NCBI GenBank assembly: GCA_002213445.1
Contig: NJIE01000024.1
Coordinates: forward strand, 1-64,000
DNA: 64,000 bases
From: Xenophilus sp. AP218F
Lineage (GTDB): Bacteria; Pseudomonadota; Gammaproteobacteria; Burkholderiales; Chromobacteriaceae
Direction: 5' to 3'
Of the stretch, positions 3,173-42,632 are shown one piece after another. Positions within the stretch are counted from its first letter, which is position 1; every line of letters starts with the position of its first letter. Made by a program: the position numbers and the translations under genes. The notes beneath the pieces are model-generated. The model saw only the letters and a list, made by a program, of their open reading frames with translations. It made no database searches and had not been told where the DNA came from.

Positions 3173-5075
3173 ATTCCTCCAGTACCCGGCGCAGATAGTT
3201 TCTTTTGAGACTCAATTCCCTGGGCAGTTTGGGGAGCCTGACCTCCAAGCTCGACCAGCGCTCAGGTACTTGTTTACGTGCATAATGTTCGCGGAAACGC
3301 TCCAATTGCACTTGTGCAACCGGATATAGCGAATGGACCTCCTGAGCGAGGAACCAGTTGAATACGGGCTGGGCGCTTTCCTGAATCTGTTGGTGTGTCT
3401 TAGTCACCAATTCCTGTAGGCATCCTGGATAGGCGAACAACCATTTCTGCAGCTCTTCCTGGCTTTTGACATCCTGCAAGCGTTTTCGGAACTGCTCTAT
3501 GGCCTGGAATAGACGGAAATAGGACAAGGCATCCTGCTCGATTTTGACATTTGGCAGCGGGTCATCTTCATCCGGCCCCACCCCTGAATGCAGACTTTTA
3601 CGTATGGTCGTCATCCCCGACGCCATGGGGGCCGTACCGGATATCAGGTTATCGATCAAATCCTTGAGAGAGTCGAAGTCCAGTGATCGACGATATTCCT
3701 GGTTTGTTTCAAGTACCAGTCCCCGGTAGACCGTTTTGCCTTCTAACTGAATGGCAAAGCTGTGGTCCGCCAGCAGTTGTTCATTGTCCGGAACGGAGAG
3801 ATTCTCTATGGGCTCGAGAGGGTAGACCCCACCGCTACGGCGATCTTTCCATACTAATGTCCGCGGCTTCGTCACTCCTGGCAAACGCAGAGTATATTGA
3901 TACACCGGTTGTCCTTCATGCCATACCCCGGAAACATTGAATACCGCCTGTTTCCAGTCAAAGGTGACCTGCAGATCAAAGGGCAATTCATCCGGTAATT
4001 TGAGTGCATCCTGTAGCAAGATCTCCTGGCTGGCAAAATTGTCAGCACTGACCTCCAGTCGCTTTCCGGTGATCTGGCTGGAAACGGGGCAGTGGAGCAG
4101 GATGCCTGCTTCAATATTGCGTCGATCAAGGCTGCTCGTACCAGGCTCGGTGAAATTCCATGAGCCAACGGCTAGTCGAGCGCTTGCTTCTCCTCGGGCG
4201 AGCCAGATCTTTGCATGAGTCATTTCCGTATTGTCATGCCGCTGACTGGGACTTTCGTAGAAACGCAAGCTTTCATCTTCTAGGCATTCCGCCAGTGCCT
4301 CACTCCAGGGGGTGCGGAAGTAGCGGTTCTCAAGTCGGTCTGCAACGAGAGCCACATTGAGTTTGGGATTGCGCGAAATTCCACGCAGACGATTGATCAA
4401 TGCAGGCAAGTTCGTGGACAGATAGGGAGACCAGACAGACAGCTGCTTGGCATGGCCATTTTCGAAGAGTCGTTCAAGAAAGCTCCGTTGTGTGAAGCTA
4501 TGCACGAACTCCCAGTCCGGATCACCCTCTTGTAATTTGAGCTTGTCATTCCATTCCATCTCGGCACCTAGGTCTAGACCCTCGCGGAGCGTTTCGAAGA
4601 ATTCCTTGATCTGGTTGCGCTGGGTCTTGCTACTCACCCTGCGGAAGACAAACGCCTCCTGGTTTCGACCCCAGCCGCCCACTGTCAGATTGGCACTGCC
4701 AGCACCCAGTACTGCCTCATTTTGATCATTTTCTAGGTAGATCACCTTGGGGTGAAACAGGGTTTGGTCATCGACCTCCGTCACGTTCCGAAATGCACGG
4801 GGCGAAACGGGATGTATTGCGACCGCCGTGCGCTTGTACTGATCTGGCATCAAGATACGCTTGTCGCAGAAGATCCTGACTTGTATGTCGTCCTTGGCCA
4901 TTTTCAACTGAAAGGATTCGTAGTCCAGCCGATTGCGCGGTGGGTCCATGTCCAGAATAGCCGGGAGCAGATGACGTTCGACAAAATCGATATTCAGATT
5001 GAAGGTGGTCATCCAGACCTTCTTCACGTTGCCGAGCGTTTTGATCTGTTTTTTGAATTCCTGCATCATTTTCAT
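3153..5075 (-). CDS. PLD-superfamily nuclease-like protein of the putative defence operon
   Basis: A 640-residue protein with two phospholipase-D-type half-sites. The first is HPK at 108-110 followed by GSANL, and the second is HAK at 287-289 followed by GSWNFTE. Both His and Lys pairs are intact, so it could form one complete active site. PLD-fold proteins in defence loci are usually nucleases acting with a helicase partner (for example DrmC in DISARM). The C-terminal 300 residues match nothing I recognise and may bind the partners. The start ATG overlaps the stop of the upstream gene in an ATGA junction. No signal peptide is present. Nuclease activity is inferred from family. Confidence 0.8.
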   Translation of the reverse strand: MKMMQEFKKQIKTLGNVKKVWMTTFNLNIDFVERHLLPAILDMDPPRNRLDYESFQLKMAKDDIQVRIFCDKRILMPDQYKRTAVAIHPVSPRAFRNVTEVDDQTLFHPKVIYLENDQNEAVLGAGSANLTVGGWGRNQEAFVFRRVSSKTQRNQIKEFFETLREGLDLGAEMEWNDKLKLQEGDPDWEFVHSFTQRSFLERLFENGHAKQLSVWSPYLSTNLPALINRLRGISRNPKLNVALVADRLENRYFRTPWSEALAECLEDESLRFYESPSQRHDNTEMTHAKIWLARGEASARLAVGSWNFTEPGTSSLDRRNIEAGILLHCPVSSQITGKRLEVSADNFASQEILLQDALKLPDELPFDLQVTFDWKQAVFNVSGVWHEGQPVYQYTLRLPGVTKPRTLVWKDRRSGGVYPLEPIENLSVPDNEQLLADHSFAIQLEGKTVYRGLVLETNQEYRRSLDFDSLKDLIDNLISGTAPMASGMTTIRKSLHSGVGPDEDDPLPNVKIEQDALSYFRLFQAIEQFRKRLQDVKSQEELQKWLFAYPGCLQELVTKTHQQIQESAQPVFNWFLAQEVHSLYPVAQVQLERFREHYARKQVPERWSSLEVRLPKLPRELSLKRNYLRRVLEECGYAAR

Positions 5076-35992: not shown

Positions 35993-38743
35993 TCAGAACC
36001 ACTGGCCGTAGCGCTTGATGTACAAGGTTTTCACCGTTTGGGTCAGCGCCAGGTAGCCGGCCATGGTCAGCAGCAGCCAGCCGAAGTAGCTGGCATCCAG
36101 CTGGACGAAGCCCAGCGAGGCCGCCAGCGGCGAATACGGCAGGTAGCAGGCCAGCGCGATGGCCACGCTGGTGGACAGCAGAATGGGCAGCGAGGCGGTG
36201 CTTTGCAGGAACGGAATCTTGCGGGTGCGCAGCATGTGCACCACCAGCGTCTGCGAAATCAGGCCTTCCATGAACCAACCCGAGTTCATGATCAGCTGGC
36301 CGCCGTCGCCGCCGTGCAGGTGATAGGCCGCGCCCGCGCCGAACACCGTCCACAGCAGGATGTAGGTGGTGATGTCGAACACCGAGGAGGTGGGCCCCAG
36401 CCACAGCATGAAGCGCTTGATGTTGCCCGCTTCCCACTTGCGCGGCTTCTTCAGGAAATCCGGGTCCATCTTGTCCCAGGGCAGGAACATCTGCGACAGG
36501 TCGTAGATCAGGTTCTGCAGCAAGAGCTGCATCGCCAGCATCGGCTCCCACGGCAGCCAGGCCGACGCCACCAGCACCGAGAACACGTTGCCGAAGTTGG
36601 AGCTGGCGGTCATGTTCAGGTACTTGAGGATGTTGCCGAAGGTTTCGCGGCCCTTGATCACGCCCTCCTCCAGCACCATCAGGCTCTTTTCCAGCAGGAT
36701 GATGTCGGCGGTTTCCTTGGCGATGTCCGCGCCACTGTCCACCGAGATGCCGACGTCGGCGTCGCGCAGCGCCGGCGCGTCGTTGATGCCGTCCCCCAGG
36801 AAGCCCACGGTATGGCCGCCGGCCTGCAACGCCTTGACCACGCGCGCCTTCTGCAGCGGGGTGAGCTTGGCGAAGATGGTGGTGTGCTTGACCGCGGCGC
36901 ACAGCGCCACGTCGTCCATGGCTTCAATGTCCTTGCCCACCAGCGGCGTGCCGGGGGCGAGGCCGACGTCGCGGCAGACTTTGGCGGTGATGATGGGGTT
37001 GTCGCCGGTCAGCACCTTGACCGCCACGCCGTATTCTTGCAGCGCCTTGATCGCCGGCGCGGCGGAATCCTTCGGCGGATCGAAGAAGGTCAGGAAGCCG
37101 CGCACCACCAGATTGGCCTCGTCGGCGGTCTGATAGCTGCGTTTTTGCTCGCCCGCCGGAATCTCGCGGGTGGCCACCACCAGCACGCGGTAGCCTTCGG
37201 CGTTGTATTCCTGGCTTTGCCGGATCAGGCGCGCGCGCTCTTCGGCGTTCAATACCCGCTGGCCATGCTGGTCCTGGATGTGGCTGGACACCGCCAGCAT
37301 TTCTTCCACCGCGCCCTTGGACACCATCAGCTGGCCGCCGCGCGGGTCGGAAACGATCACCGACAGGCGGCGGCGCACGAAGTCGAACGGCAGCTCGTCC
37401 ACCTTGTCGTAGCCCTGCGGCTTGGCGCGCTCGCCCAGCTCGTCGGCGCGCTCCACCACCGCGATGTCCATCAGGTTCTTCATGCCGCTCTGGTGGAAGC
37501 TGTTGAGCCACGCCAGTTGCAGCACCGATTCGTCCTTGTCGCCATGGATGTTGTAATGGTGCTCCAGGATGATCTTGTCCTGGGTCAGCGTGCCGGTCTT
37601 GTCGGTGCACAGCACGTCCATCGCGCCGAAGTTCTGCACCGAATTGAGCCGCTTCACCACCACCTTGCGGCGCGCCATCGCCACCGCGCCCTTGGCCAGG
37701 TTGGCCGAGACGATCATCGGCAGCATTTCCGGCGTCAGGCCCACCGCCACCGCCAGCGCGAAGGTGAAGGCCGACATCCAGTCGCCCTTGGTGATGCCGT
37801 TGATCATGAACACGATCGGCACCATCACCAGCATGAAGCGGATCAGCAGCCAGGAGACGCTGTTGACGCCCTTGTCGAAGCTGGTTTCGATGCGCTTGTG
37901 GCTGACCACGTTGCGCGCCAGCGAGCCGAAATAGGTATCCGCGCCGGTGGCCACCACCACGGCGGTGGCCTTGCCGCTCACCACATTGGTGCCCATGAAG
38001 CAAATATTGGGCAGGTCCAGCAGGTCGGTTTCCTCGCCGGCCTTGCCGTTGGCCGATTTTTCCGCCACCGCGCCCAGGGTGTCGTATTTCTCCACCGGCA
38101 GCGCCTCGCCGGTAAGCACCGCCTGGCTGATGAACAGATCGCGCGAGTCGATCAGCTTGATGTCGGCCGGAATCATGTCGCCGGCTTGCAGGTGGACGAT
38201 GTCGCCCACCACCAGCTCGCTCATCGCCACTTCCAGGCGGATCGGAGCCGCGCCGCTGGCCGGGCGGCGCTGCACGGTGGAGGTGTTGCGCACCAGCGAT
38301 TTGAGCTTTTCCGCGGCCTTGGCGGAGCGGAATTCCTGCCAGAAACGCAGCAGGCCGCTGACGCCTATCATGGCGGACAGGATGATGACCTTGGTCCAGT
38401 CCTGATCGTCCGGCGGGGCCATGGCCACGTCCATCACGTAGCTGATGGCGCCGAGGATGATCAGCACGATCACGAAGGGGTTGTTGAAGGCCTGCAGCAG
38501 CTGCATCAGCGGATGCGGCGGCTTGTCGTGCGCCACCTCGTTGCGGCCGTGCTGCATCAGCCGGTGCGCGGCCTCGGCCATGGTCAGGCCGTCGTCGTGG
38601 CTGCGCAGATTGGTCAGCGTGGTCGCTACGCTGTTGTTCACTTCGGACACCACGCGGGTGGCCAGCTTGTCTTCCTTGCCGCCAGGGGTGGCGATGAAAC
38701 CGCGCAGTTTGTTGCGGTTTGCGGTGCGTTGCTGTTTGCTCAT
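35993..38743 (-). CDS. mgtA: Magnesium-importing P-type ATPase
   Basis: A type IIIB P-type ATPase that brings Mg2+ into the cell under scarcity. 916 residues with the actuator loop LTGEALPVEK (210-219), the phosphorylation motif DKTGTLTQ (Asp381), and the hinge GDGINDAPALR near residue 655. Membrane helices lie near 85-105, 115-132, 300-345 and in the C-terminal bundle. The start has GGAGAGAGCA just upstream. A 290-base leader before it holds a 22-codon acidic/proline peptide gene (38964-39032) and a strong hairpin at 38756-38787, suggesting post-initiation control as in enterobacterial mgtA. mgtE is upstream on the same strand. Confidence 0.95.
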   Translation of the reverse strand: MSKQQRTANRNKLRGFIATPGGKEDKLATRVVSEVNNSVATTLTNLRSHDDGLTMAEAAHRLMQHGRNEVAHDKPPHPLMQLLQAFNNPFVIVLIILGAISYVMDVAMAPPDDQDWTKVIILSAMIGVSGLLRFWQEFRSAKAAEKLKSLVRNTSTVQRRPASGAAPIRLEVAMSELVVGDIVHLQAGDMIPADIKLIDSRDLFISQAVLTGEALPVEKYDTLGAVAEKSANGKAGEETDLLDLPNICFMGTNVVSGKATAVVVATGADTYFGSLARNVVSHKRIETSFDKGVNSVSWLLIRFMLVMVPIVFMINGITKGDWMSAFTFALAVAVGLTPEMLPMIVSANLAKGAVAMARRKVVVKRLNSVQNFGAMDVLCTDKTGTLTQDKIILEHHYNIHGDKDESVLQLAWLNSFHQSGMKNLMDIAVVERADELGERAKPQGYDKVDELPFDFVRRRLSVIVSDPRGGQLMVSKGAVEEMLAVSSHIQDQHGQRVLNAEERARLIRQSQEYNAEGYRVLVVATREIPAGEQKRSYQTADEANLVVRGFLTFFDPPKDSAAPAIKALQEYGVAVKVLTGDNPIITAKVCRDVGLAPGTPLVGKDIEAMDDVALCAAVKHTTIFAKLTPLQKARVVKALQAGGHTVGFLGDGINDAPALRDADVGISVDSGADIAKETADIILLEKSLMVLEEGVIKGRETFGNILKYLNMTASSNFGNVFSVLVASAWLPWEPMLAMQLLLQNLIYDLSQMFLPWDKMDPDFLKKPRKWEAGNIKRFMLWLGPTSSVFDITTYILLWTVFGAGAAYHLHGGDGGQLIMNSGWFMEGLISQTLVVHMLRTRKIPFLQSTASLPILLSTSVAIALACYLPYSPLAASLGFVQLDASYFGWLLLTMAGYLALTQTVKTLYIKRYGQWF

Positions 38744-38755
38744 TGCTCTCTCCGG

Positions 38756-38787
38756 GCGAACGGCCTGGCGCGGGCCAGACGGTTCGC
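38756..38787 (-). promoter_or_regulatory. Hairpin in the mgtA 5' leader, next to its ribosome binding site
   Basis: Arms GCGAAC-GGCCTGGC and GCCAGAC-GGTTCGC around loop GCGG form a 14-pair stem with two mismatches. It ends three bases before GGAGAGAG of mgtA. It could hide or space the ribosome binding site, or act in transcription control downstream of the leader peptide. Confidence 0.5.
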
Positions 38788-38963
38788 TTGGGGTATCGAC
38801 ATCCTTGCCTGGCGCGAACGCCGGGCATGGCCGCGCGCCGCCGCCGGGTCGGTCGGGACCGGGCGGGCGCGGCTTGCTGCTTGGGGGATGAAAGACGCGA
38901 GGAAGGAGAGGCGCGGCGAGAACGGCTAAAAAATTCCAACAGCCAGGCGGCGGTTGCAGTTTG

Positions 38964-39032
38964 CTAGCGATTCTTGTCGATCCAGCCTTCCGGTTCGGCG
39001 TCGCGCGGTTCGGGCTCGGGTTCTTCGGTCAT
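38964..39032 (-). CDS. Putative Mg2+-sensing leader peptide upstream of mgtA
   Basis: A 22-codon gene with ATG, a good ribosome binding site (GAGAGG, three bases before the ATG) and a TAG stop. The peptide begins MTEEPEPEPR, continues DAEPEGW and ends IDKNR. Six Glu and four Pro residues fall in the first 15 positions. It lies between mgtE and mgtA, 45 bases after the mgtE stop and 220 bases before the mgtA start. In enterobacteria the 17-codon MgtL leader, also acidic/proline at its start, makes ribosomes fall off at low Mg2+ and so allows mgtA expression. This gene is not homologous to MgtL by obvious alignment, so the role is inferred from composition and place. Confidence 0.6.
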   Translation of the reverse strand: MTEEPEPEPRDAEPEGWIDKNR

Positions 39033-39077
39033 GATCCTCTCGCGGTCAGAAGCGGCGCCGGCGGCGCCGCGGTTGGG

Positions 39078-40463
39078 TTAAACGGCCGGGGCGGCCAGCA
39101 TGTGGCCGAGGAAGGCGTAAGCCAGGCCGAAATAAATGAACACGCCCAGCATGTCCATCACCGACGTGATCAGCGGCGAGCTGAGCGTGGCCGGATCGGT
39201 GCCCATCCGCTTGGCCAGGAAGGGCAGCAAGGCGCCGATCACGCCGCCGGCCATGGTGCACAGCATCATGCTCAGGCCCACCACCAGCACGATGTCGAAG
39301 CCTACGCCCTTGGAGAAGTAGGCCAGCACCGCTTCCAGCAGCGCCACGGTCACGCCCAGGCACAGCGCCACCGGCAATTCGCGCTTGAGCACGAAGCCGA
39401 CGTCTTTCCAGCTCAGGCTCATCTGTCCCAGCGCCATCCCGCGCAGCACCAGCGTGGCGGACTGGCTGCCGGCGTTGCCGCCCATGTCGACGATGGGGGC
39501 GATGAAGGCGGCCAGGATGATCGCCGCTTCCAGCAACTCCTGCTGCCGGGCGACGAAGGTGCTGGTGATGGCTCCGAACACGGTGAGGATCAGCAGCCAG
39601 AACACCCGCACCCGGAACATCCGCGTCCAGCTGGAGCTGCGCATGTCCAGATTGTTGTCGTCCAGCGCCGCCGCGCCGCCGAAATTGGTCAGCCGGGTCA
39701 CGTCCTCCTCGCGCTCGATGTCCATCGCCTCGTCTATGGTGACGATGCCTATCATGCGTCGCTCTTCGTCGATGACCGGCAGCGCCAGAAGGTCGTAGCG
39801 GCGGATCAGCTCCGCGGCGCGGCTGCGCGGCCAGCCGGCCTCGGCGAATACCGGGTTGTGCTGCATCAGGTCGGCCACCCGCGCCTCCAGCGGCGCTTGC
39901 ACCAGGTCGCCCAGCGACACGGTGCCGAGCAGCTGGTGGCCCTCGCCCAGGATGTAGATCGCCTCGATGGCCTTGTTGTCCTTGCCGCCGGCGCGCAGCG
40001 TGGCCAGCGCTTCCGACGCGCTCAGCTCGGGCGCGATGGAGGCGTAGTCGGAGCTGGTTTCCGCGCCGACCGAGTGCTCGGGATAGCTGGACAGTTTCAG
40101 GATGTCGTCGCGCTCCACCTTGGCCAACGCCGACAGCAGCCGGTTTTGCTCGCCGCGGCTCAGACGGTTGTAGAGGTCGGCGCGTTCGGCCGACGGCAGG
40201 CGTTCGAACAGGGACACCACCACGGGATGCGGCAGCAGGTTGAGCAATTCGTCCTGGCGCTCGGCCGGCATGTGCGCCAGCAGCTCGGCGCGGGTATGGG
40301 CGGCCATCGCCTGCAACAGGCCGGCGACCTCCCGCGGCGGATGCTGTTCCAGCTCGCTCACCACGTCGGCCAGCGGCGCGGCGCGCAACAAACGGTCGAA
40401 GGTCGGCCCGTCGAAGCTGCGCAGTTGGTCGCGGATGGTGAGTTGCAGTGCTGCTCGATTCAT
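39078..40463 (-). CDS. mgtE: Magnesium channel/transporter MgtE
   Basis: Dimeric Mg2+ channel gated by cytoplasmic Mg2+. 461 residues: N-terminal superhelical domain (about 1-135), two CBS domains (about 140-265, including PVIDEERRMIGIVTIDEAMD), then five membrane helices (about 290-455) with the pore segment PIVDMGGNAGSQSATLVLRG. The start has AAGGAATC upstream. A terminator and a hairpin precede it and no clear promoter lies between them and the start, so attenuation of read-through from the genes at 40647-41696 is likely. A GC hairpin (39050-39068) follows the stop. Confidence 0.95.
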   Translation of the reverse strand: MNRAALQLTIRDQLRSFDGPTFDRLLRAAPLADVVSELEQHPPREVAGLLQAMAAHTRAELLAHMPAERQDELLNLLPHPVVVSLFERLPSAERADLYNRLSRGEQNRLLSALAKVERDDILKLSSYPEHSVGAETSSDYASIAPELSASEALATLRAGGKDNKAIEAIYILGEGHQLLGTVSLGDLVQAPLEARVADLMQHNPVFAEAGWPRSRAAELIRRYDLLALPVIDEERRMIGIVTIDEAMDIEREEDVTRLTNFGGAAALDDNNLDMRSSSWTRMFRVRVFWLLILTVFGAITSTFVARQQELLEAAIILAAFIAPIVDMGGNAGSQSATLVLRGMALGQMSLSWKDVGFVLKRELPVALCLGVTVALLEAVLAYFSKGVGFDIVLVVGLSMMLCTMAGGVIGALLPFLAKRMGTDPATLSSPLITSVMDMLGVFIYFGLAYAFLGHMLAAPAV

Positions 40464-40484
40464 GTGTGATTCCTTGGTGCTACC

Positions 40485-40508
40485 CTGGCGGCGCGTCGCG
40501 CCCGCCAG
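40485..40508 (-). promoter_or_regulatory. Hairpin in the mgtE leader
   Basis: Perfect inverted repeat CTGGCG / CGCCAG enclosing GCGCGTCGCGCC, located between the upstream terminator and the mgtE ribosome binding site (about 12 bases from it). It may act with the terminator at 40529-40561 as alternative RNA structures. Confidence 0.45.
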
Positions 40509-40528
40509 ATGCCAGATTGCGAATTGAG

Positions 40529-40561
40529 AAAAAAGGCCGGCGCGCGGCGTCCGGGCGCCGG
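40529..40561 (-). terminator. Intrinsic terminator / possible attenuator before mgtE
   Basis: Arms CCGGCGC and GCGCCGG with a GC-rich interior are followed on the minus strand by TTTTTT. It lies 86 bases after the ACT-like gene at 40647 and 66 bases before mgtE. No promoter-like hexamers were found after it, so transcription of mgtE probably has to pass it. Confidence 0.75.
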
Positions 40562-40646
40562 CGCCTGCCGAAAGCCAGCCGGCGAGCGGTATGGGTCGCG
40601 CTTGATTCGGCTGGCGGCGGCCCGCGCAGGCAGGCCGCGTCCCGGC

Positions 40647-41009
40647 TCAGGCGCCGATGCGGCGCAGGCCCGGGCTTTTGGGCTGCTCGTGCCAGCGGCC
40701 CCAGCGCACGCGGCGGATCTGCGGCTGGCGGCTTAGCCGCAGCGCCAGTTGATCCAGCGTGGGGCGCAGGCCCAGCGGGCACTCCAGCCGCAAGGTAAGC
40801 GTGACCAGCAGGCTGCCTTGCAGCGGCTCGATGGCCATGTCGCAGGCGCGCAGCCCCAGGCAGTGCGTTTCCCAGAACAGCTGCTTGCGCAACGGGGCCA
40901 CCAGCCCCGCCTCGCACAGCACGCTCAAGCGGTAATCGGAATGATCGGAATGGCGCTGAGGATTTCGGACGAAATAATTCAGCAGCCAGGACAGTTTTGC
41001 AGCGCGCAT
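40647..41009 (-). CDS. Small ACT-like (MgtC C-domain-like) protein, paralogue 2
   Basis: 120 residues without signal or membrane segment. The order of predicted strands and helices (YRLSVLCEAG, LRKQLFWETH, LRACDM, SLLVTLTLRLEC, LDQLALRLSRQP, IRRVRWGRW) fits a beta-alpha-beta-beta-alpha-beta ferredoxin/ACT fold, like the C-terminal domain of MgtC proteins. It resembles the protein at 41343-41696 in layout and in the closing pattern (R-V-R-W versus Y-R-L-R-W). The start has GAAGGAG upstream. Its position before mgtE and mgtA suggests a regulator or sensor in Mg2+ uptake. The fold assignment is my inference. Confidence 0.65.
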   Translation of the reverse strand: MRAAKLSWLLNYFVRNPQRHSDHSDYRLSVLCEAGLVAPLRKQLFWETHCLGLRACDMAIEPLQGSLLVTLTLRLECPLGLRPTLDQLALRLSRQPQIRRVRWGRWHEQPKSPGLRRIGA

Positions 41010-41054
41010 CGCAATTCTCCTTCGGCGCTTCGCGGCGAGCGGGCAGGTTTTTCC

Positions 41055-41076
41055 CGCGGACGATTATTCGTCCGCG
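41055..41076 (-). promoter_or_regulatory. Perfect hairpin in the leader of the second ACT-like gene
   Basis: Arms CGCGGACGA and TCGTCCGCG with loop TTAT, extended outward by CAGGT/ACCTG. It ends about 45 bases before the start at 41009. There is no T-run, so it is not a plain terminator. Confidence 0.55.
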
Positions 41077-41126
41077 ACCTGTCCGCTTTTAATTGACCGC
41101 GATGAATTCCTGTTATTTAAAAGGCA

Positions 41127-41156
41127 ATAAAAACCCCTGCCGTATTTGAATGACAA
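41127..41156 (-). promoter_or_regulatory. Possible promoter before the second ACT-like gene
   Basis: The minus strand reads TTGTCA (41156-41151), 18 bases, then TTTTAT (41132-41127), in an AT-rich stretch about 120 bases upstream of the gene at 40647-41009. The -35 is good and the -10 is weak. Confidence 0.35.
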
Positions 41157-41244
41157 TACGAGGCATTATTGCGAAACATTTAAATAAGCGGCGTATCGGC
41201 AGGCGCATCGCGCCAGCCGGATCAGCCTGCAGGAAGCCGATGGA

Positions 41245-41299
41245 CTAGGCGATGGCGCCGACCAACCAATACGGTCGCGGTTCTGGTTCTTCAGACATG
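41245..41299 (-). CDS. Second acidic/proline micro-ORF in the magnesium locus
   Basis: A 17-codon gene encoding MSEEPEPRPYWLVGAIA. It has a textbook ribosome binding site (GGAGG, five bases before ATG) and ends TAG. It begins 43 bases after the ACT-like gene at 41343-41696 and precedes the second ACT-like gene by 235 bases. Its first nine residues parallel the micro-ORF before mgtA (M-x-E-E-P-E-P-x-P). The hydrophobic tail YWLVGAIA could matter for the ribosome tunnel or membrane. A Mg2+-sensing leader role like MgtL is inferred. Confidence 0.6.
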
Positions 41300-41342
41300 C
41301 AAACCTCCTTGACCTGGGCGGCGAGAGAGAAAGGAAAAAGGG

Positions 41343-41696
41343 TCAGGCAGCGCGGCGCGCCGGCTCGGCGGCCAGCGGCTTGCGCTCCCAGCGCAGACGG
41401 TAGACTTCGGGCATGGCGGCAAACTGTCGCAGCAACCCGCCGAAGGCGTCGCGGCCGTCCGCCGGGCACAGCAACACCAGCGTGAGACAGGCCAGGCGGC
41501 CTTCTCCCTGCGGGCGATGGCCGGCGCGCAGCGGACGCATGCCCGCGGCTTCCAGCGCGCGCGCCAGCCCGGCTTGCAGGCCGTCCGCCGCGTCGGCGGG
41601 GCACAGCAAGGCCAGCCGGCACAGCGTCTGCTGAGGCGCGTGGGCCTTGAGCAGCGCCTGGCGGCGGAAAAACGGTAACAGTTTGATGATGCGCAT
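41343..41696 (-). CDS. Small ACT-like (MgtC C-domain-like) protein, paralogue 1
   Basis: 117 residues, no signal peptide. Segments TLCRLALLCPAD, LQAGLARALEAAGM, LRAGHR, RLACLTLVLLCPAD, FGGLLRQFAAMPEV and YRLRWERKP alternate as strands and helices, in the order expected for an ACT/ferredoxin fold. It matches the layout of its neighbour at 40647-41009. The start is supported by GAGGGGAAATC-ATG. It is the first full gene of the locus, about 290 bases downstream of a good promoter. Function unknown; standalone versions of the MgtC C-terminal domain would fit a Mg2+-related regulator. Confidence 0.65.
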   Translation of the reverse strand: MRIIKLLPFFRRQALLKAHAPQQTLCRLALLCPADAADGLQAGLARALEAAGMRPLRAGHRPQGEGRLACLTLVLLCPADGRDAFGGLLRQFAAMPEVYRLRWERKPLAAEPARRAA

Positions 41697-41711
41697 GATT
41701 TCCCCTCGGCG

Positions 41712-41738
41712 TTAACAGAGAGGACGCGGCAAATCCAT
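41712..41738 (-). CDS. Possible eight-codon leader ORF before the first ACT-like gene
   Basis: ATG to TAA encoding MDLPRPLC, ending 15 bases before the ACT-like start at 41696. The proline/aspartate content and location recall Mg2+ leader peptides. However, no ribosome binding site is visible, so it may not be translated. Confidence 0.25.
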   Translation of the reverse strand: MDLPRPLC

Positions 41739-42164
41739 TGCGCGCACGCCGCCACGCGTCAGCGCGGCCCAGCGCCACGGCGAGGCCGGCGGGCTGGAAG
41801 AGCGTTGCCGTCCGAAGGGACGGCCAGTGGCGGGAACAGGCCAAGCCTGAAAGATGCCACACCCTGAGCTTTGCAGGATGCGGCAGAGGAAAGGAATTCT
41901 GCTATATCCTGCAAGGCGACGTTGCGATCCAAGATCGGCTACATCCGTCGTTGTCCACAGTGAACCCTTGCTTATTGATAACGGGCCAGACTATAAACCA
42001 GCCTCCGGGCAGAATCAAATCTTATTAAGCCAAATTTACATTTTTTAATTAACTCGGCGAATATTGGCTTTAGCCAAGCAATCAAATCGCATTATCTTGC
42101 GCCGCATTTGCCGGTTCATGTCATTTCAAGCTCGCGATACGCGCCAGAAAACGGAACCGCGGCG
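41739..42164. other. Leader and upstream region of the magnesium locus
   Basis: No substantial gene is supported. The part up to about 41983 is likely the 5' leader of the ACT-like transcript. It includes a strong hairpin GCCGTCC/GGACGGC (41807-41824). Above 42018 the DNA is AT-rich and contains the palindrome TTGGCT-TT-AGCCAA at 42064-42077, with another AGCCAA at about 42028, a possible operator. Confidence 0.5.
41990..42018 (-). promoter_or_regulatory. Sigma70-type promoter of the magnesium locus
   Basis: The minus strand carries TTGATT (42018-42013), a 17-base spacer, and TATAGT (41995-41990). The predicted transcript has a leader of roughly 290 bases before the first ACT-like gene. Confidence 0.6.
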
Positions 42165-42632
42165 TCAATGTCCCAGCGGCAGCTGGCCGAGTTTGTCCTT
42201 GAGCTTGCGCATCACGATGTAGGAGCAGATGTCGCGCATTCCCGGCAGCTTGTTAAGCTTCTCCACCACGAAATCCGAAAACGCCGCCAGATTGCGGCAG
42301 CGGACGTGCAGCACGTAGTTGCACGGCCCGGCGACGATGTAGGCGGCCGCCACCTCCTCCAGCGCGTCCACCTGCTCCAGAAATTCCTCGTGCCAGTCCT
42401 GGCGCGACTGGTCCAGGCCGACGTGGACGATGGCCTCCAGCTCGCAGCCCAGCCGCGCCGCGTCCAGCTCGGCGCGGTAACCGCGAATCAGGCCGTTCTC
42501 TTCCAGCGCCCGCACCCGCCGCAGACACGCCGACGGCGACAGCGCCACCTTGTCCGCCAGGTCCTGATTGCTCAGCCTGCCGTTCTGTTGCAGGGCGGCC
42601 AGAATGCGCCAATCTATCGCGTCTATCTGCAT
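42165..42632 (-). CDS. Lrp/AsnC-family regulator, probable KynR-type
   Basis: 155 residues. The N-terminal helix-turn-helix (about 4-60) reads [30 protein letters not shown]. The C-terminal RAM ligand domain (about 68-145) has [17 protein letters not shown]. It diverges from kynU, the arrangement of KynR and its kynurenine genes in Pseudomonas, so kynurenine or tryptophan is the likely effector. The ATG at 42632 ([11 protein letters not shown]) is the normal family start; 26 codons of upstream open frame are unlike the family. Confidence 0.85.

Follow-up and report, generated by a model that had tools for sequence, protein, structure and literature searches.

The Mg2+ locus in the window analysed here (the whole stretch of 64,000 nucleotides, from a Chromobacterium-group genome) carries three short leader ORFs on the same strand as the genes that they precede, in the order uORF0-sC1-uORF1-sC2-mgtE-uORF2-mgtA. 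These leaders probably act like MgtL and MgtQ, with ribosome destabilisation as the means of sensing Mg2+. The analysis shows that the ORFs exist, are conserved and are associated with Mg2+ genes, and that uORF0 has paired arms. Mg2+ control through ribosome drop-off in a leader ORF is known mainly from Salmonella and E. coli.

Leader ORFs at the Mg2+ locus

The products of all three leader ORFs start acidic (table 1), uORF0 with MDNDGCSRSW from its GTG codon, uORF1 with MSEEPEPRPYW and uORF2 with MTEEPEPEPR, and in two of them the acids alternate with proline. The leader ORFs end 205-235 bases before the starts of sC1, sC2 and mgtA. The first-pass annotation had described uORF2 as a single leader. 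That 22-codon ORF is indeed present in a gap of 334 bases between mgtE and mgtA, both of which are confirmed by curated families, but two further leader ORFs had been missed. The ribosome site of uORF2, previously called good, is no more than moderate (GAGAGG, 3 bases ahead of the ATG), and that of uORF1 is better. The TATAGT of the putative promoter also stands 5' of uORF0 in L074 and L081, both of the Chromobacterium stretches that extend that far.

Table 1. Features of the Mg2+ locus in the window, in minus-strand order
Feature	Position	Strand	Description
Sigma-70-like promoter TTGATT-17-TATAGT	41990..42018	minus	before uORF0; consensus match only
Attenuator-like element	41852..41958	minus	uORF0 and the mutually exclusive hairpins 1:2 and 2:3
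uORF0	41958..41902	minus	GTG start, 18 aa, MDNDGCSRSWIATSPCRI; first leader ORF, upstream of sC1
Region 1 (TTGCAGGAT)	41906..41914	minus	within the last codons of uORF0
Region 2 (TGCCGCATCCTGCAA)	41871..41885	minus	pairing partner is region 1 or region 3
Region 3 (CAGGGTGTGGCA)	41855..41866	minus	
sC1	41343..41696	minus	117-aa small protein; tblastn-related to sC2
uORF1	41298..41245	minus	17 aa, MSEEPEPRPYWLVGAIA, Shine-Dalgarno AAGGAGG; upstream of sC2
sC2	40647..41009	minus	120-aa small MgtC_SapB_C-like protein; Pfam match E 1.9e-4
mgtE, Mg2+ transporter/channel	39078..40463	minus	Pfam MgtE; NCBIfam TIGR00400 282.4 bits (cut-off 232.75)
uORF2 (reported micro-ORF)	39032..38964	minus	ATG start, 22 codons, MTEEPEPEPRDAEPEGWIDKNR, stop TAG; upstream of mgtA
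C-rich, G-poor stretch	38843..38920	minus	C 53%, G 22%; between uORF2 and mgtA; Rho-loading-like
mgtA, Mg2+ P-type ATPase	35993..38743	minus	TIGR01524 1268.3 bits (cut-off 610.75)

The mgtE gene of the window is without a leader ORF, the sC2-mgtE gap holding no start codon except mgtE's own. In that gap, at about 40529-40575 on the minus strand, a GC-rich inverted repeat followed by six T looks terminator-like by eye; a consensus terminator scan reported one site, on the other strand, and did not flag this repeat. At the Rfam gathering thresholds, tRNA was the sole match in the window and 15 related loci, and four weak sub-threshold matches in the Mg2+ region (window 38700-42200) were taken as chance.

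For sC1 there is no Pfam match at E up to 1, and the similarity of sC2 to MgtC_SapB_C is weak (22.4 bits, below the cut-off of 27), while the sC2 of a sister species barely passes it (27.5 vs 27). Stand-alone proteins of this size class (110-130 aa) occur mostly beside Mg2+ genes (sC1 and sC2 in the window; L074:3833-4210 and 4441-4782; L231), and some of them are similar to the C-terminal domain of MgtC/SapB.

Distribution of the acidic heads

An exact pattern of the head (GG and a spacer, followed by ATG, one free codon and codons for Glu-Glu-Pro-Glu-Pro) was sought in 61 whole genomes of the family. This M-x-E-E-P-E-P head with its ribosome site is present in 18 of the 61, that is in 18 of 19 in Chromobacterium and 0 of 42 outside; the reversed pattern, a control over the same 61 genomes, gave no match. 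The idea of a peptide unique to the window's species was dropped. The nineteenth Chromobacterium-genus genome, isolate TC5R-5, has MSEEPEPQPPGP upstream of mgtA, without a ribosome site. In two sister species the ribosome site of uORF2 is unrecognisable, and their head is also weakened (EEPGP). The window's genome matches in two places, both at the Mg2+ locus, and all 34 distinct places (36 listed rows, two ORFs being doubled by two GG positions) lie upstream of mgtA or mgtE: 27 at the mgtA locus and seven, in sister genomes, before mgtE, the latter coming from the pattern search and not being a random sample. Among other mgtE genes of the family, used as a control (L184-L213, with 267-444 bases of upstream sequence), an acidic leader ORF was found in 0 of 30, and among further mgtE controls (L214-L227) in one of the 13 with upstream sequence, the fourteenth having none; close relatives of this lone positive, L217, are without the ORF. 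Loss of the reading frame in relatives had been named beforehand as refuting the first-pass claim, and we find frame, acidic/proline head and place at Mg2+ genes all kept.

A looser head pattern with GGAG was run on 300 genomes of the order, just two of them from the Chromobacterium genus, and matched in three, against one match for the backward control. No additional EP case at a locus similar to these Mg2+ genes came out of the 300 genomes. One match was the window's own uORF1. A second (L183) was rejected because, judged by eye, it begins a longer gene that is unrelated. The third, L182:1517-1558 in genome G107, is a 13-codon acidic/proline ORF, MGDDPDPPPPQQG, with a ribosome site. Some 1.5 kb on each side of L182 and L183 showed no similarity to the window's MgtA, MgtE, sC1 or sC2.

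Acidic starts at mgtA extend well past the exact head. We collected 80 named mgtA loci, 79 with enough upstream sequence and nine being Chromobacterium records, mostly of genomes already counted above. Within 300 bases upstream of mgtA, a short acidic-start ORF with a ribosome site occurs at 36 of the 79 loci vs 0 of 79 antisense. Repeated at offsets of 3 to 7 kb, this test gave 1/77, 2/77, 0/76, 2/76 and 2/76, an offset of 2 kb gave 7/77 (four being Chromobacterium loci, where uORF0 is expected), and four stretches inside mgtA gave 0/80 each. Within 1.5 kb, an acidic-start ORF with a ribosome site was found at 51 of 79 loci, Chromobacterium included, vs 10 of 79 antisense; the figures are 36/37 vs 5/37 outside Pseudomonas and 15/42 vs 5/42 within it. 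By this rule the ORF is missing at 27 of the 42 Pseudomonas loci, seven of which do carry an acidic-start ORF, but one lacking a recognised ribosome site, and at the single Comamonas locus. The loci are related and the trials not independent; at least one acidic-start ORF is present in 11 of the 12 named groups, Comamonas having none. Such heads make up 115 of 6066 short ORFs with a ribosome site in the background, and the scanner recovered E. coli MgtL as a control.

Acidic-start ORFs whose heads read differently stand before mgtA in Aeromonas (MTEEPKPRP), Pandoraea (MEDGSSRM, MEDGSPRR or MDDDSSRM), Phyllobacterium (MDDYPSRP), Achromobacter (MEDDGSTRT), Iodobacter (MPDEPIL and MDNDGCNRS) and part of Pseudomonas (MDEASSRF or MEEASSRF). 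Some Chromobacterium have MTDDSYP or MTDESYP, TC5R-5 has MNDDSYP and Aquitalea MSDDSYG. The first-pass annotation spoke of a betaproteobacterium; as the Aeromonas leader shows, such heads have a wider range. At about -210 to -340 from mgtA, the acidic-start ORFs of Pandoraea, Pseudomonas, Phyllobacterium and Pseudochrobactrum (L118-L121, L129, L133, L154, L161, L165, L168, L173 and others) often have S-S-R or P-S-R after the acids. The mgtA leader peptide of L158, a record titled Bacillus subtilis, is MDDDSSRWLCAV, the same as in Pseudochrobactrum L168, and the record is probably mislabelled or contaminated.

This diversity of heads bears on an alternative scenario, in which the leaders are proline-supply attenuators, a shortage of charged proline tRNA delaying the ribosome at Pro codons. 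EP-type heads do contain two to three Pro codons, and Salmonella mgtP is reported to act in this manner (PMC3641672), as the mgtA leader ORF had been before it. However, uORF0 has no proline before residue 15, and the first eight residues are proline-free in most Pseudomonas, in 4/4 Achromobacter and in 3/5 Pandoraea heads (e.g., MDEASSRF, MEDDGSTR, MEDGSSRM). Acidity is the common feature, and the prolines of EP heads are isolated, not consecutive. Proline alone was dropped as an explanation of the head pattern, and we regard attenuation by proline supply as unlikely.

RNA structure at the leaders

The last codons of uORF0 coincide with region 1 and can pair with ATCCTGCAA in region 2, whose alternative partner is CAGGRTGTGGYR in region 3. 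Alignment A1 joins the window to 20 of 21 pattern-matching loci (27 tried), L083 being omitted as identical to another row; the six loci that failed the collecting pattern include L077, in which the element is present and the last pattern base differs. Both the first 14 bases of uORF0 and the end of region 3 (GTGGYRTCY) were set by this pattern, so that part of the conservation at these two places follows from the selection itself. On A1, RNAalifold picked hairpin 2:3. Over the 21 sequences, 99.4% of cells are paired in hairpin 1:2, where four sequences have a two-sided change at one pair; in hairpin 2:3 the share is 99.6%, and six pairs vary on one side only. Given no two-sided change, the support for 2:3 consists of pairing and G-U changes. 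With region 1 masked, as by a ribosome, 2:3 was the minimum-energy fold in 4/4 sequences tried; in unmasked folds 1:2 was preferred in 3/4, L074 preferring 2:3.

An RNA model run on 369 genomes of the class found a second copy of the element in the window's own genome (contig C28, 59.7 bits), in the order GTG-MNNDGCSRSWVEASPGGV, an MgtC-C-like gene, ATG-MTEEPEAQARSA and another small gene. It retains 9/9 pairs in 1:2, where A-U and U-A have both become G-C, and 11/12 in 2:3, where a C-G has become U-A. A 26-bit match in G589 was taken as chance, its locus having a best tblastn E of 0.11 to the window's Mg2+ proteins. The element has no Rfam match in the window and the 15 related loci, and consensus folding of the leaders downstream of uORF1 and upstream of mgtE revealed no clear shared switch. 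As modelled, the uORF0 element appears switch-like and would be attenuator-like, with two mutually exclusive conserved hairpins. At L231:5346-6499, the locus on C28, the uORF0-like attenuator and the EP-type ORF precede two small proteins, and no transporter is seen in 8 kb of sequence; the small MgtC-C-like proteins may there be the regulated genes themselves.

The C-rich bubble that follows uORF2 ranks among the top 0.01% of the window's 78-base stretches, and a C minus G of 0.30 is reached by about 0.2% of random 221-base segments. A C-rich signal is modest after uORF0 and none was found after uORF1. By composition, the stretch after uORF2 would fit a Rho loading site. Outside the window, the mgtA leaders of 12 of the 19 genus genomes (L071:4881-5061 and 11 sister loci, alignment A2) contain a long structured RNA and a conserved two-codon ORF (ATG, ACA/CCA/ACC, stop) with GGAG in front. 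RNAalifold on A2 gave 49 pairs, three with two-sided changes, with one stem directly before the mgtA ribosome site, and Rfam had no match on five of the 12 loci; the modelled fold is a candidate for a new cis-regulatory RNA.

Whether the codons of the heads are conserved, and not the RNA only, is a point raised in the first-pass annotation that receives a divided answer. The heads keep their residues mostly via third-base changes while the tails diverge, but constraint on the RNA appears to be mixed in. Among 18 copies of uORF1 (five, with the ATG one codon further up, aligned by their heads), E3, P5, E6, P7 and R8 are invariant, residue 4 is Glu or Asp, and P5 is written in four codons. Among 19 copies of uORF2, E3, P5 and P7 are unchanging, P5 in two codons and P7 in three; residue 4 is Glu (Asp in one) and residue 6 Glu (Gly in three), third-base variation covers codons 4 to 7, most positions from codon 8 on have many residues, and codons 9-13 are highly varied. 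That frame and acidic/proline head are kept and the rest is free fits a head acting on its own ribosome. The Arg at position 8 is CGA in all 18 uORF1 copies and in all seven mgtE-leader copies examined.

The opposite view is that these stretches are conserved only as RNA structures or protein-binding sites, with the reading frame incidental. Residues 6-8 of uORF1 (GAA-CCG-CGA) are invariant in DNA, GAACCGCGA being unchanged in the 18 copies, and the last uORF0 codons lie within a conserved hairpin arm. We raised our estimate for this view, and slightly lowered that for sensing through ribosome destabilisation, because uORF0 conservation stems in part from the collecting pattern and because of the unmasked fold of L074. 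Nevertheless, third-base changes predominate in uORF2 codons 4, 5 and 7 and in uORF1 codons 4 and 5, short in-frame ORFs are retained despite divergent tails, unrelated heads share acidity, and the second uORF0 copy, on contig C28, still reads NDGCSRSW with changed DNA (GTGAATAACGATGG). Conservation as RNA only is, in our opinion, decidedly unlikely.

Known systems and the proposed mechanism

Ribosomes of E. coli drop off at the EPDP motif of MgtL at low Mg2+, the Rho site is hidden and mgtA is transcribed (PMC11282234). A similar part is played in Salmonella by two residues of the intergenic MgtQ, Asp2 and Glu5, via alternative stem-loops before mgtB (PMC8092293), and acidic residues are the ribosome destabilisers in both leaders (PMC11282234, PMC8092293). 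Like MgtL, uORF2 is a short same-strand ORF closely upstream of mgtA, starting 289 bases before it (194 in E. coli), and both have an acidic/proline head; in contrast, the uORF2 tail is unrelated, and Chromobacterium has three leader ORFs at one locus. The first-pass interpretation is partly supported, an MgtL-like function of uORF2 being putative, and the likeness in the first residues may reflect homology or convergence. Rfam Magnesium-II (RF01056), which matches E. coli at 125.8 bits as a positive control, has no match at gathering in the window or the 15 related loci, and a search of window 38700-42200 with E up to 10 was also empty; the Chromobacterium leaders would thus not be members of that enterobacterial RNA family. 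MgtQ, with 8 codons between Salmonella mgtC and mgtB, resembles uORF2 in its intergenic place (here mgtE-mgtA) and in acid residues near the start, and resembles uORF0 in the alternative stem-loops overlapping the ORF (PMC8092293). Genes and sequences are different, the switch here is at the 5' end, at uORF0, and whereas the MgtQ stem-loops hide or free the downstream ribosome site, the uORF0 hairpins are known only as mutually exclusive arms.

Other leaders offer partial parallels. The tandem attenuators mgtM and mgtP of Salmonella mgtCBR also place several leader ORFs in one Mg2+ operon, but they answer ATP and proline, mgtP through ribosome slowing at Pro codons (PMC3641672), while the Chromobacterium ORFs have one chemical feature in common and are each placed ahead of a different cistron. 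CorL, the corA leader ORF, likewise combines a Mg2+ transporter leader with an RNA switch and Rho (PMC11552253), but has fewer acidic/proline residues and another gene, corA. A candidate riboswitch precedes mgtE in Thioalkalivibrio (PMC11109978). Since an mgtQ-like ORF before Brucella melitensis mgtB is mentioned (PMC8092293), acidic leader ORFs outside the enterobacteria are not wholly new; in the open-licence literature we found neither the uORF0 attenuator nor any description of leaders of this type in Chromobacterium or of EP-type ORFs leading mgtE.

As head and place are of the same kind as in MgtL and MgtQ, we hold each ORF to be a putative Mg2+-sensitive translation-abort leader for the next cistron. 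With adequate Mg2+ the ribosome would translate the leader ORF to its end; when Mg2+ is low, the ribosome would be destabilised by the acidic nascent chain and drop off early. A ribosome reaching the end of uORF0 would cover arm 1 and let 2:3 form, while early drop-off would leave arm 1 free for 1:2. The changed RNA would then decide the expression of the downstream genes, in the case of mgtA probably via access of Rho to the C-rich stretch. We infer one common transcript for the three leaders, as well as their translation, Mg2+ dependence and the direction of the switch.

Could the peptides instead act in trans, as small transporter regulators like MgtR or MgtU? The ORFs adjoin transporters, and Salmonella mgtCBRU encodes such peptides (PMC8092293), but EP-type lengths range from about 12 to 29 residues and the tails are unconserved, which makes a role in trans very improbable. 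That the ORFs are unused products of chance, short ORFs being common and uORF2 being without a good ribosome site in some species, is the most improbable reading of all in view of the empty reversed-pattern control, the specificity for Mg2+ genes and the 36/79 vs 0/79 contrast with the antisense strand.

Returning to sensing through ribosome destabilisation, nascent-chain destabilisation as a Mg2+ gauge so far rests on few enterobacterial leaders. We see an evenly balanced case for a broader proposition, that acidic-start leaders are a general, repeatedly reinvented proteobacterial Mg2+ gauge of mgtA, joined in Chromobacterium into a relay with an independent sensor of ribosome stability before most cistrons and with a new attenuator RNA family, the uORF0 element. 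Differently worded acidic-start families at mgtA in beta-, gamma- and alphaproteobacteria would make this a general sensing principle, and natural variants such as EEPEP, DDSYP, DEASSR and DNDGSSR would be material on what makes a nascent chain destabilise its ribosome. If the relay is true, small MgtC-C-domain proteins, an inducible MgtE and MgtA would each be set by a leader of their own, and the three-leader locus raises the question of how serial sensors add up.
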